From Treponema sp. (GTDB lineage: Bacteria > Spirochaetota > Spirochaetia > Treponematales > Treponemataceae), in contig JAEEWW010000019.1 of the NCBI GenBank assembly GCA_016287815.1, positions 1 through 32,289 on the forward strand: DNA of 32,289 nt, read 5' to 3'. Both the position numbers and the translations under genes were made by a program. The notes under the pieces were generated by a model. The model had not been told where the DNA came from. It saw only the letters and a program-made list of their open reading frames with translations, and did no database searches. Within the stretch, counting starts at the first letter, position 1; the number at the start of each line of letters is the position of its first letter. This document shows, one piece after another, positions 4,418 through 30,879 of this stretch.

Positions 4418-6406
4418 ATGGCATTTGTTCAATTTTCACAGGTTTCTCTGGCCTTTGGTGACCGCGACATTCTTAAAAACGTTACGGTAAACCTTCAGAC
4501 AGGTACAAAGGCTGCTCTTACAGGAGCAAATGGAGCCGGAAAATCTACTTTAATAAAAATAATGGCCGGTTTGATAAAACCAGACAGCGGTTCAAGAACC
4601 GTTCAAAAAGATTCTCGGATTGCATATCTTCCGCAGTCTGGACTTACACATCATGGGCGAACGCTTTTAGATGAAGCAGACCAGGCTTTTGAATTCGGCT
4701 ATAAAATTCAGGAAGAAATTGACCGCATAGGTGATTTGCTTACAAAAAATCCGCCTAATACAGAAAATCTTTTAATTCAACAAAGCGATTTAATGACAAA
4801 ACTTGAAGATTCAGGCTGGCACAGGCGCAAGGCAACAGCAGAATCCGTTTTAATTGGTCTGGGCTTTAGTCGCGAAGATTTTTCTAAGATGACGGAAGAA
4901 TTTTCAGGCGGATGGCAGATGCGCATTGCTCTTGCAAAAGCACTTATGCAGAATCCTGATATTCTTTTATTGGACGAACCAACGAATTATCTTGATTTGG
5001 AAGCGCGCACCTGGCTTGAACAGTTTTTGCAGAACTACAAGGGTGGTTTTTTGCTTGTAAGCCATGACCGTTATTTTTTAGACGTTACAATTAACGAAGT
5101 TTACGAACTTTTCGGCGGAGATTTAAAACGTTATCCGGGAAATTTTACACATTACGAAAAGGTGCGCGCCGTAGAACTTGAGACACTTATAAATCAGTAC
5201 GAACAGCAGCAGCAGGAAATTCAGCATCTGGAAGATTACATAAGAAGGTTTGGAGCTAAGGCAAGTAAAGCCGCTCAGGCACAGGACAGACAAAAACGTC
5301 TGGATAAAATTGTGCGTATAGAGATTCCTGAATCTTTGAAAAAAATACACTTTTCTTTTCCAAAAGCACCGCACGCCGGTAAACTTGTTTTACGCCTGAA
5401 CGGAATTACAAAATCCTACGACGGACAAAAAAACGTTCTTAATAATCTTAACCTTACAGTAGAAAACGGCGAGCGTCTGGTTGTAGCAGGTCACAACGGA
5501 GCCGGTAAATCTACTTTGCTGCGCATCATTGCTGGAGAAGACCGCAATTTTTCAGGCGAAATAATTCCTGGAGCAGGCGTACAAATCGGTTATTTTTCTC
5601 AGGATAATGCAGAAACAATTAAAGGCAGCGAAACAATTATTGACTGCATAGAAAAAGAAGCTCCTCTGGAACTTATTCCAAAAATCCGCGACATGCTTGG
5701 AGCATTTTTGTTTCGCGGCGATGATGTATTTAAGACGCTGGATGTGCTTTCCGGCGGCGAAAAAAGCCGTGTAGCTTTGCTGCGCCTGCTTTTGCGTCCG
5801 GTTAACCTTTTGATTTTAGATGAACCGACGAACCACCTCGACATGCATTCAAAGGATGTTTTGCAGGATGCGCTTAAAGATTTTGGCGGAACTGTAATTT
5901 TTGTAAGCCATGACAGACAGTTTATAGAAAATCTTGCAACAAAAGTTCTTGAATTAAAACCAGGACTCTTCAGGGAATTCCCGGGAGACTACCATTATTA
6001 CCAGGAGCGCCTTGAAGCAGAAGCGCAGGGTATAATTGCAGGAGGCACTATAAACGGCAACGATGAGTCTACTTCAAGCACAGCCGCAGGCAAAAGCAAA
6101 GACACAAACGCAAGTTTAGGCGCAGGTAATGGCGCTTCATCATCAGCGCAAACTTCGCTTTCTTACGAAGAACAGAAAGCCTTGCGCGCACAAAAAAGCA
6201 AGATGGAAAAAGAAGTTGCCCGTCTTGAACAAGAAATTACAAAAGCAGAAAATGAAAAGAAAACTTTGGAAAACCAGATGGCAAATCCAGAAGTTTATAG
6301 CAACGGCGAAAAATGCCGTGTAATTCAACAGAAAATTTCAGAACTTGATAAAGTGCTTGAAAGTCTGAATGAACAATGGGAAACAGCAGCCGAAGCCCTC
6401 GGCTAG
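4418..6406 (+). CDS. ABC-F family ATPase (Uup/YdiF-like ribosome-associated factor)
   Basis: The 662-residue protein has two ABC ATPase domains and no membrane segment, the hallmark of ABC-F proteins. These act on ribosomes as translation factors or antibiotic protection. Domain 1 has Walker A GANGAGKST (36-44), signature FSGGW (162-166) and Walker B ILLLDEPTNYLD (182-193). Domain 2 has GHNGAGKST (358-366), LSGGEKS (444-450) and LLILDEPTNHLD (464-475). The linker between them (about 240-315) holds the charged helix pair typical of the P-site tRNA interaction motif. After a Ser/Gly/Ala/Asn-rich linker (536-580) comes a C-terminal coiled coil (582-655), as in Uup and YdiF. GGAG at 4404-4407 is the ribosome site. 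The next gene, galE, starts 9 nt after the stop, so the two are co-transcribed. The exact subfamily cannot be set from this. Confidence 0.93.
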   Translation: MAFVQFSQVSLAFGDRDILKNVTVNLQTGTKAALTGANGAGKSTLIKIMAGLIKPDSGSRTVQKDSRIAYLPQSGLTHHGRTLLDEADQAFEFGYKIQEEIDRIGDLLTKNPPNTENLLIQQSDLMTKLEDSGWHRRKATAESVLIGLGFSREDFSKMTEEFSGGWQMRIALAKALMQNPDILLLDEPTNYLDLEARTWLEQFLQNYKGGFLLVSHDRYFLDVTINEVYELFGGDLKRYPGNFTHYEKVRAVELETLINQYEQQQQEIQHLEDYIRRFGAKASKAAQAQDRQKRLDKIVRIEIPESLKKIHFSFPKAPHAGKLVLRLNGITKSYDGQKNVLNNLNLTVENGERLVVAGHNGAGKSTLLRIIAGEDRNFSGEIIPGAGVQIGYFSQDNAETIKGSETIIDCIEKEAPLELIPKIRDMLGAFLFRGDDVFKTLDVLSGGEKSRVALLRLLLRPVNLLILDEPTNHLDMHSKDVLQDALKDFGGTVIFVSHDRQFIENLATKVLELKPGLFREFPGDYHYYQERLEAEAQGIIAGGTINGNDESTSSTAAGKSKDTNASLGAGNGASSSAQTSLSYEEQKALRAQKSKMEKEVARLEQEITKAENEKKTLENQMANPEVYSNGEKCRVIQQKISELDKVLESLNEQWETAAEALG

Positions 6407-28406: not shown

Positions 28407-28847
28407 ATGTTTAATAAGAAAATTGCAGCTGCAGTAGCATTTGTTTCACTTGCACTTTCTACAAGTGTTTTTGCAACAAAGGTCGGCCCTGGTCTTGGAT
28501 ACGTAATCTTAGGCGATAAGAGCGGTCCTGGAATGGATCTTCTTGCAGCAACAACAAACGGCTGTTGTTTTACACAGTGTTTTGCCATTACATTCGGAAC
28601 TTCCGGATACAAAGGCGGACTTGTTGGCATGGACGCTACAGAAAAATTTGTTGGCGACAACATGGATGCTCTTGCTGTTGACATTGCAAAAGGTGAAGGC
28701 GAATACGTAGATACTCTTGCAGCAATGCTTGAAGTTTCTGATACAGTAGCTTTCAAGTCTACTTTGCAGGACAACTTTGACAACATCTTTACTGCTGATT
28801 CTTCTGCTAAAGAAGTTAGCGAAAAGATTGTTGCATTAAAATGCTAA
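28407..28847 (+). CDS. DUF3015 family secreted protein
   Basis: This 146-residue periplasmic protein has a Sec signal peptide (MFNKKIAAAVAFVSLALSTSVFA, cut about 23). The mature part starts TKVGPGLGYVILG. It has the family hallmarks LLAATTNGCC and CFAITFGTSGYKGG, where conserved ATTN and TSGTSGC-type motifs of DUF3015 occur. A helical C-terminal half ends KIVALKC. Two cysteine pairs (CC near 52-53, then 57, and the terminal Cys) could form disulfides. DUF3015 genes often lie beside DUF4105 genes in other bacteria, as I recall, and that is the arrangement here. Function is unknown. A terminator follows that also contains the next gene's promoter. Confidence 0.85.
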   Translation: MFNKKIAAAVAFVSLALSTSVFATKVGPGLGYVILGDKSGPGMDLLAATTNGCCFTQCFAITFGTSGYKGGLVGMDATEKFVGDNMDALAVDIAKGEGEYVDTLAAMLEVSDTVAFKSTLQDNFDNIFTADSSAKEVSEKIVALKC

Positions 28848-28864
28848 AAAATACTGGTTTACAG

Positions 28865-28893
28865 TTGAAAAGGTACGGTTTTTATCGTACCTT
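28865..28893 (+). promoter_or_regulatory. Promoter of the DUF4105 gene within the DUF3015 terminator
   Basis: TTGAAA (28865-28870), 17 bp, TACCTT (28888-28893), then 6 nt to the ATG at 28900. The -10 is weak and lies in the terminator's second arm and T-tract. Confidence 0.45.
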
Positions 28894-28899
28894 TTTTTT
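28868..28899 (+). terminator. Terminator of the DUF3015 gene
   Basis: AAAAGGTACG (28868-28877) pairs with CGTACCTTTT (28886-28895) with an 8-nt loop. The 8-T tract (28892-28899) ends at the base before the next ATG. Confidence 0.9.
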
Positions 28900-30879
28900 A
28901 TGTCTGAAAAATCACTTTATAAAAAAAGATTTTCATTTACTATCCTGAGTTTTTTCGTTTTATTGATTTCTCAAACATTGCAAGTCAGCGCTCAGGATTA
29001 CAATACAAATCATCCCGATATTGATTTTACAAGAAAAGAATTTGCCAGACTCGAACAAAAATACCACAAAACTGCTGAAGAAGCCATTCAAAAAGCCCGT
29101 GAACTTGAACTTTACAAAGACCCGTACTGGCATACGCTCATTCATTATAAACCGCTTGACTGCGGCAGTTTTTACAAAAGCCTTGTTGACGACCCTAAAT
29201 TTTTCTTTGCAGAAAACGGCAAAACAAATCCTCAGGCAGAACTGGAAGAAACAATCCGCTCTTTTTTTTCCATGCCGAATGAACATGAAAAACATCCGAC
29301 GGCAAGATTTCCGGGAAGGTATCTTTGGCTTAGAACAAAACTTGGCTTAAATCCAGAAGAGTTTCCTTACGACGGCGATACAGAATACAACGATTTAATG
29401 GGAAAACTTGTACCGGATTCAATTTATCTTGTATTTTCTTCAGGCTACATGAAAAGTCCTGCATCAATTTTCGGGCATACATTTATTCTTGTTGAATCAA
29501 AAGGACAGCCGCGGCTTCTGGCAAACTCAATAAGCTACGGCGCAGAATCCCATGGAGTTGGCGGAATAATGTATGGAATTCTGGGCTTGTTCGGCGGATT
29601 TTACGGTTATTACGGATTTACGCCATACTATGACAGAATCAGAAAATACACTGCCATAGATATGCGCGATATGTGGGAATACAAACTTGATTTTACCGAT
29701 GAAGAAAAAGACCGTATGCTGCGCCATATAATCGACATGCAGGGAATTTATTCGCGTTATTATTTTGTTACAGAAAACTGTTCATACAATCTATTATTTT
29801 TAATTGAAGCGGCAAAACCTGAAACACAGGCAAGTTCCAGACTTTCAGGGGCTGTTGAGCCGATAGCAACCGTAAAATTTATCCATGATATCGGTCTTAC
29901 AAATCAAGCTGTTTACAGGCCTTCTGCCTATGCACAGATAGAAAACTATAAAAAACAGCTTTCAAACAAAGAAAATAAATTTGTAAGAGAGGTTTGTTTC
30001 GGTAAGAAAACAACCGCTGACTATGATTTTTCAAAACTGCCTAAAGAAAAGCAGGCTGCCATGTGGGATTTAGCAGCACTTTATTTACAACATCTTCTTT
30101 CTGAAGAAAAAATTGCGCTTGAAGAATACCGTCCGCGCTATGTTGCCGTTCTTTCTGCCCGCGGAAAATTGGGAAAAGTAAAATCAACAGAGATTGAAGA
30201 AATTCCAGATGCTCCGCATATTTCGCATGATTCAAAATTACTGGCTATCAGCGGAGGCAAATCATTACAGGGAAATTACGCCGGAGCTTCATGGCATCTT
30301 ACAGCACATAATCAGCTGGAAAGACCTGCAGGATACAGCGAAAACTCGCAGCTTGAATTTTTCTCTGCTGAAGTAAGAAGATATTCAGATGACAGGTGGG
30401 AATTAAAAAAAGCATATTTTGCAGATATAATTTCACTACCATCGTCTGACACTTATTTTTGCAACACAGCATTCCAGTTTGTTTTAGGCGCAGAACAGAA
30501 TGCAAATGAAAAAGAAGAAAATGAACTTGCGCTTCGGTTAAAAGTCTGCGGCGGTTACAGTATTAAACCTTCTGAACATATTCAGCTTTATATTATGCTG
30601 GGACCAGATTCATATTTTAATCCGAATTATGAATATAAAACTGATTTACTGCTTGGAGGCCAGGCAGGTTTTATTACGACATTTGGAAACTGGAAAAACA
30701 AAATGGAATCGCAGCTTTTTCAGTCACCGCTGGACAAAGACCATTTAAGGGCAGTTTTTTCTGTACAGGAACAGTTGAATATAAAACGAAATTTAAGTCT
30801 GGCGGCTTCGTATTCATACAACATGGATTACGAAAACCGCTGGCATGACTTAAATTTTTCTATAAATATTAATTATTAG
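28900..30879 (+). CDS. DUF4105 / Lnb-N domain protein with outer-membrane barrel
   Basis: The 659-residue envelope protein has a signal peptide (hydrophobic 12-29, cut near VSA-QD). The DUF4105 domain (about 80-320) includes ARFPGRYLWL (135-144), SPASIFGHTFILVES (186-200; His193) and YFVTENCSYNLLFLIE (288-303; Cys294). The His-then-Cys order with an ENC motif recalls permuted NlpC/P60- and LRAT-like papain folds, so a thiol hydrolase or acyltransferase is a fair guess. From about 435 to the end the sequence is made of alternating beta strands with aromatic ends and finishes in LNFSININY, the usual C-terminal strand of an outer-membrane barrel. It follows the DUF3015 gene with no Shine-Dalgarno. 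Its stop overlaps the stop of the convergent symporter gene by 4 nt. Substrate is unknown. Confidence 0.8.
   Translation: MSEKSLYKKRFSFTILSFFVLLISQTLQVSAQDYNTNHPDIDFTRKEFARLEQKYHKTAEEAIQKARELELYKDPYWHTLIHYKPLDCGSFYKSLVDDPKFFFAENGKTNPQAELEETIRSFFSMPNEHEKHPTARFPGRYLWLRTKLGLNPEEFPYDGDTEYNDLMGKLVPDSIYLVFSSGYMKSPASIFGHTFILVESKGQPRLLANSISYGAESHGVGGIMYGILGLFGGFYGYYGFTPYYDRIRKYTAIDMRDMWEYKLDFTDEEKDRMLRHIIDMQGIYSRYYFVTENCSYNLLFLIEAAKPETQASSRLSGAVEPIATVKFIHDIGLTNQAVYRPSAYAQIENYKKQLSNKENKFVREVCFGKKTTADYDFSKLPKEKQAAMWDLAALYLQHLLSEEKIALEEYRPRYVAVLSARGKLGKVKSTEIEEIPDAPHISHDSKLLAISGGKSLQGNYAGASWHLTAHNQLERPAGYSENSQLEFFSAEVRRYSDDRWELKKAYFADIISLPSSDTYFCNTAFQFVLGAEQNANEKEENELALRLKVCGGYSIKPSEHIQLYIMLGPDSYFNPNYEYKTDLLLGGQAGFITTFGNWKNKMESQLFQSPLDKDHLRAVFSVQEQLNIKRNLSLAASYSYNMDYENRWHDLNFSININY

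Follow-up and report, generated by a model that had tools for sequence, protein, structure and literature searches.

The window, i.e., the whole stretch of 32,289 nucleotides of Treponema DNA that was analyzed, contains on its forward strand a gene pair whose products are a small secreted protein and a relative of a known enzyme of lipoprotein acylation, the latter protein being anchored in the outer membrane. This pair recurs in many bacteria and probably represents a real, as yet uncharacterized way of handling outer-membrane lipids. The reading that we favor, with a rough probability of 0.5, is a thiol enzyme of the Lnb family that is located in the outer membrane, faces the periplasm, acts on phospholipid acyl chains as acyltransferase or acyl-hydrolase, and is accompanied by an exported partner made in excess. 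The first gene (28407..28847, + strand) encodes a DUF3015 protein of 146 aa (PF11220, E = 5e-26), and the second one (28900..30879, + strand) the enzyme of 659 aa, with a signal peptide at about residues 1–32. Both reading frames and their positions had been correctly assigned in the original prediction, to which the present analysis adds a conserved intergenic hairpin, evidence for partner excess, a lipoprotein replacing DUF3015 and lipid-related neighbors.

Catalytic domain and relation to Lnb and Lnt

In the 659-aa protein, a DUF7843 domain (29107..29337, + strand, residues 70–146; PF25225, E = 1.7e-21), helical in the structural model, is followed by the Lnb_N catalytic domain (29401..29877, + strand, residues 168–326; PF13387, formerly DUF4105, E = 5e-43), the latter scoring 147.1 bits versus a curated cutoff of 22.2. 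H193, N293, and C294 are conserved in 100% of 47 aligned barrel-type sequences. The catalytic His193 and Cys294, the latter in an ENC motif (292–294), had been placed correctly. Moreover, G192, H193, R256, Y287, N293, and C294 are invariant across three subgroups, namely barrel-type, Lnb-like and long Lnb_N proteins. As these core residues are identical between the groups, the catalytic chemistry is probably kept in the barrel-type proteins, as far as can be deduced from sequence. The proposed membership in a papain-like enzyme family (permuted NlpC/P60, LRAT-like) agrees with the Lnb_N match and with the published classification of DUF4105, which was described as papain-like in an earlier paper (PMC10318531) and is grouped with permuted, lipid-acting NlpC/P60 members in PMC12994826. 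The order of His before Cys in the sequence likewise fits permuted NlpC/P60 enzymes. The AlphaFold2 model of the enzyme, built on six sequences, has a mean pLDDT of 68.7, with values below 50 around both His193 and Cys294. A PDB sequence search with the enzyme gave no match, and in the fold search with the full enzyme the matches were filled by the barrel portion. Many peptidases belong to the papain-like superfamily (PMC10318531), and the protein might be envisaged to work, like canonical NlpC/P60 enzymes, as a cysteine peptidase or amidase with peptidoglycan or DUF3015 as substrate; however, the grouping of DUF4105 with lipid-acting members (PMC12994826) and the residues matching those of Lnb make such an activity improbable.

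According to PMC12994826, DUF4105 corresponds to Lnb, the lipoprotein N-acyltransferase of Bacteroides (PNAS 2024, 10.1073/pnas.2410909121, cited therein). The earlier statement that neither of the two proteins has a known function is hence outdated for DUF4105, whereas it still applies to the barrel branch and to DUF3015, both being uncharacterized in the literature searched. Searches for DUF3015, DUF7840 and guessed Acinetobacter locus tags returned nothing on function, and no activity of any barrel-type member is reported in this literature.

An assignment of the 659-aa protein as Lnb orthologue was rejected, since it reaches only 14.4 bits over 105 of 394 positions of the Lnb equivalog NF051878 (cutoff 550), bears a barrel instead of trans-membrane helices and falls into a separate clade. 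Spirochaetota Lnb-like proteins score 153–235 bits over about 340–380 positions of NF051878, also below the cutoff of 550, and those examined show 2–6 hydrophobic segments with C-terminal trans-membrane helices. In the maximum-likelihood tree of the domain, barrel-type sequences form one clade (support 95/96) and Lnb-like sequences another (100/99). Three short Lnb-like membrane proteins from Treponema (L018, L019, and L164), in which a GH...NC motif of the usual spacing was not found, are possibly inactive paralogues, judging from their sequences. Besides, five Lnb_N proteins of 900–1150 aa (L150, L016, L017, L151, and L152) gave no DUF7840 match in the searches made. Several members of this long group have barrel-like C-termini, and the group is sister to the barrel type in the tree; its architecture is possibly another outer-membrane version.

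The source Treponema genome has two LNT_N matches, and LNT_N is kept in 44 of 47 genomes with a barrel-type gene, which is about the background rate in the 296 Spirochaetota genomes analyzed. A role of the barrel type as Lnt replacement was therefore dismissed, and plain lipoprotein N-acylation would be redundant in the source genome. The Lnb_N domain with its identical core residues could also be taken to indicate a second lipoprotein acyltransferase, modifying a subset of lipoproteins after their transport to the outer membrane, for which the small lipoprotein encoded upstream of the enzyme in a DUF3015-less clade (see below) could be a substrate. Such a function appears unlikely, however, with Lnt already present at about the same rate as in genomes lacking the barrel gene and with DUF3015 being devoid of a lipobox. 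As a separate observation, LNT_N was not found in three Treponema-order genomes (G037, G049, and G057), each of which encodes a short Lnb-like protein. These are all the Lnt-less genomes of the first sample and likely represent a natural Lnt-to-Lnb replacement outside Bacteroidota, the association between Lnt absence and short Lnb-like proteins being a weak trend in the larger sample (p = 0.055).

The outer-membrane barrel and its orientation

The C-terminal DUF7840 domain (30208..30867, + strand, residues 437–656; PF25222, E = 4e-35) is modeled by AlphaFold2 with 12 long strands forming a barrel. In line with the anticipated outer-membrane barrel, comparison with solved structures of this type resulted in VIA-align Z scores of 17.9 for EstA, 17.8 for NanC, 17.3 for KdgM, 14.8 for LpxR, and 11.5 for OMPLA. 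The protein ends with Y659, and a C-terminal F, Y, or W is found in 41 of 45 barrel-type relatives. Ahead of the first barrel strand, the model, which is of moderate quality, shows a loop with the conserved residues P439 and H443 and no pore-filling helix. Because an even-stranded barrel has both of its ends in the periplasm and no helix plugging the pore is predicted, the enzyme domain is most likely located at the periplasmic side of the outer membrane, as far as the model allows. The tethering to the cell surface that had originally been proposed is not supported by these features. Display of the enzyme at the surface in the manner of the EstA autotransporter might be suggested by the best barrel fold match, as EstA is an esterase on a 12-stranded barrel. 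Yet the Z scores of unrelated porins are tied with that of EstA, and with a linker predicted as loop and not as pore-filling helix this topology is very unlikely. In one genome (G178), a 279-aa barrel-only remnant without Lnb_N match is encoded (L109:7992-9584), preceded by a TRL-family lipoprotein (PF13146).

The DUF3015 partner and its pairing with the enzyme

The DUF3015 protein matches PF11220 with 91.7 bits versus a curated cutoff of 25. By eye, a signal peptide with cleavage near residue 23 (SVFA|TK) is predicted, and a lipobox is missing. In the AlphaFold2 model (mean pLDDT 65.6), a glycine-rich hairpin at the N-terminus, predicted with low confidence, precedes a C-terminal region of five helices, with the helices at 49–121 well predicted. 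Searching the PDB gave no significant sequence match and no fold match above Z = 4.

As predicted, the two-gene module is recurrent. In the 296 Spirochaetota genomes, DUF7840 was detected in 47 and DUF3015 in 38, while 36 encode both (Fisher p = 4e-34), with DUF3015 directly upstream of the enzyme gene on the same strand in 33 of these 36. In two further cases, the locus is interrupted by contig breaks: in G269, the contig ends within the enzyme gene that follows DUF3015, and in G065, DUF3015 is located just before the first part of an enzyme gene split across two contigs. Tandem DUF3015 copies occur in four genomes. The same arrangement is present on plasmids from the gammaproteobacteria Acinetobacter, Pseudoalteromonas, Photobacterium, and Salinivibrio, with DUF3015 just upstream of the enzyme gene in eight of nine records and ISAba1 occupying its position in the ninth. 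On the Acinetobacter baumannii plasmid pJ9-3 (L047), the enzyme gene together with blaADC lies between two ISAba1 copies, and DUF3015 is not annotated there. A single-protein scan of the whole genome collection yielded five close loci only, the nearest ones to the Treponema pair being from T. parvum and T. berlinense; the wider set was obtained from the genome search and the plasmids.

Several deviations at the DUF3015 position were observed. In genome G010, it is taken by a 136-aa protein (L006, 2484-2894, − strand) showing the glycine-rich N-terminal motif twice and lacking the helical part. In-frame stop codons in DUF3015 were found in L042 (TAG, about 5400-5867), G252:C62 (TAG), and G246:C277 (TGA), the adjoining enzyme genes being apparently intact. 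A DUF3015 call in L143 (G081) by a custom HMM was discarded, as the gene encodes a different lipoprotein. Among the barrel-type proteins without DUF3015, five form one clade (97/88), and in all five loci a homologous small lipoprotein is encoded just upstream in the same direction; a Pfam scan of two of these five lipoproteins gave no match. Downstream of the lipoprotein gene, a hairpin resembling the one described below was recognized by eye. With the occupant changing and the hairpin being kept, it is the slot for a small exported protein before a hairpin that is conserved.

Intergenic hairpin and partner dosage

Between the two Treponema genes lies a terminator-like hairpin (28867..28896, + strand) with a 13-bp stem, a 4-nt loop, and a T run (MFE −18.9 kcal/mol, z = −5.3), ending just before the ATG of the enzyme gene. 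When scoring intergenic hairpins with a folding energy of −12 kcal/mol or better, and after removal of near-copies, 28 of 30 pairs were positive compared to 39 of 246 control pairs, i.e., other same-strand neighbors from the same stretches (p = 1e-17, a value overstating the evidence somewhat, as related pairs are not fully independent). A stricter hairpin pattern was found in 18 of 31 pairs versus 13 of 245 controls. The lipoprotein locus L143 was left out of the former count and is still within the 31 pairs of the latter. The stem sequences differ between groups, so that it is the structure which is kept and not a copied sequence. In addition, in 15 of 18 genomes the small gene resembles ribosomal genes in its codon usage more than the enzyme gene does (p = 0.002, likewise somewhat overstated due to relatedness). 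The simplest reading of the hairpin would be a leaky terminator keeping the enzyme low and DUF3015 high. Hairpin, ribosomal-like codon usage, and the occurrence of tandem DUF3015 copies (four genomes) together indicate that the partner is probably produced in larger amounts than the enzyme. Alternatively, the hairpin could stabilize the DUF3015 transcript or define its end, without fixing the ratio of the two products.

Neighboring genes and lipid context

Further genes recur around the pair. The gene following the enzyme encodes an alpha/beta hydrolase in 13 of 48 loci, and those hydrolases that were read carry a lipoprotein signal. Nine loci, including L106:11777-12355 and L107:8289-8933, code for a secreted CPxC-motif protein of about 190 aa without Pfam match, which recurs downstream of enzyme or hydrolase. 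In one family, the enzyme gene is followed in three loci by genes for an AsmA-like protein (NF047499, 344.7 bits) and for a lipoprotein of the DUF1318 (YdbL) type; PMC8593681 connects YdbH, TamB, and YhdP with lipid homeostasis of the outer membrane. LpxC was not found in the source genome, in six other barrel-carrying Treponema tested and, overall, in 23 of 40 barrel genomes. Lipid A is therefore unlikely as a common substrate and was set aside.

These neighbors also bear on a possible role resembling that of OMPLA (PldA), with the periplasmic cysteine enzyme remodeling or clearing phospholipids as phospholipase A or lysophospholipid acyltransferase of the outer membrane, and DUF3015 having a lipid-binding or regulatory function. 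Such an activity would be in agreement with the hydrolysis of PG and PE by Tox-Act1, a sister clade of DUF4105 (PMC12994826), with the adjoining alpha/beta hydrolase in the 13 loci and with the AsmA-like and YdbL-like neighbors in view of the lipid homeostasis link (PMC8593681). On the other hand, the nearest characterized family with an Lnb_N domain transfers acyl chains to protein, and the neighboring genes are conserved in some families only. Hence, we consider this role conceivable though doubtful.

Proposed function

According to the reading favored here, the thiol enzyme domain would be held by the barrel on the periplasmic side of the outer membrane, where Cys294, aided by His193, might take over a phospholipid acyl chain as thioester. 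The acyl chain could then be passed to an outer-membrane lipoprotein, a lysophospholipid, the partner, or water. Due to a leaky intergenic terminator, secreted DUF3015 would be present in excess over the enzyme; it might be an acceptor, carrier, or regulator more likely than a 1:1 subunit. The acyl chemistry is suggested by family membership and the identical residues, and the Lnb_N match, the shared core residues, the barrel, the absence of LpxC, the lipid-related neighbors, and the probable partner excess all count for this reading. Against it stands the distance from Lnb (14 bits versus 550), because of which the substrate may differ, as well as the low pLDDT of the active-site region, which is modeled too poorly to confirm the papain-like fold or the His–Cys contact. 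A more specific and rather unlikely version would be an outer-membrane system for protein lipidation or lipid scavenging, in which abundant DUF3015, or the small lipoprotein in the one clade, serves the barrel-anchored cysteine acyltransferase of Lnb type specifically as acyl acceptor or carrier.

Comparison with known systems

Among systems combining an enzyme with a barrel, EstA of Pseudomonas aeruginosa likewise carries, within a single chain, an enzyme domain N-terminal to a barrel of 12 strands (barrel Z = 17.9). EstA is a GDSL esterase displayed outside the cell, whereas the Treponema protein is a cysteine enzyme of another fold and probably periplasmic. OMPLA (PldA) and LpxR are lipid-active outer-membrane proteins that also form 12-stranded barrels (Z = 11.5 and 14.8, respectively). 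Their active sites lie on the barrel, while in the Treponema protein catalysis is assigned to a domain of its own, and the source genome yielded no LpxC and hence no sign of lipid A. The Salmonella T6SS effector Tox-Act1 and the LRAT/PLAAT proteins share with it the superfamily, the His–Cys pair and, in characterized members, lipid acyl chemistry (PMC12994826). However, Tox-Act1 is a secreted toxin, whereas the Treponema enzyme belongs to a two-gene module and has a signal peptide and a barrel; the kinship is taken from PMC12994826.

The closest relation is to Lnb of Bacteroides (PF13387/NF051878), which has the Lnb_N domain and the invariant core of G-H, R, Y, and N-C in common with the Treponema enzyme. 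The latter differs from Lnb by its outer-membrane barrel, the N-terminal DUF7843 domain, the small partner gene, and the coexistence with Lnt, and from the Lnb-like proteins, a clade by themselves with multiple trans-membrane helices at the C-terminus. Lnb itself was identified as recently as 2024, as an enzyme taking the place of Lnt. If the favored reading is true, a separate branch of the Lnb family has moved to the outer membrane, is kept alongside Lnt and is tied to a small partner. Acyl transfer would then take place also at the outer membrane, both in spirochaetes and in gammaproteobacteria, among them species seemingly without lipid A. The pairing places the functionally uncharacterized DUF3015 family in a concrete context.
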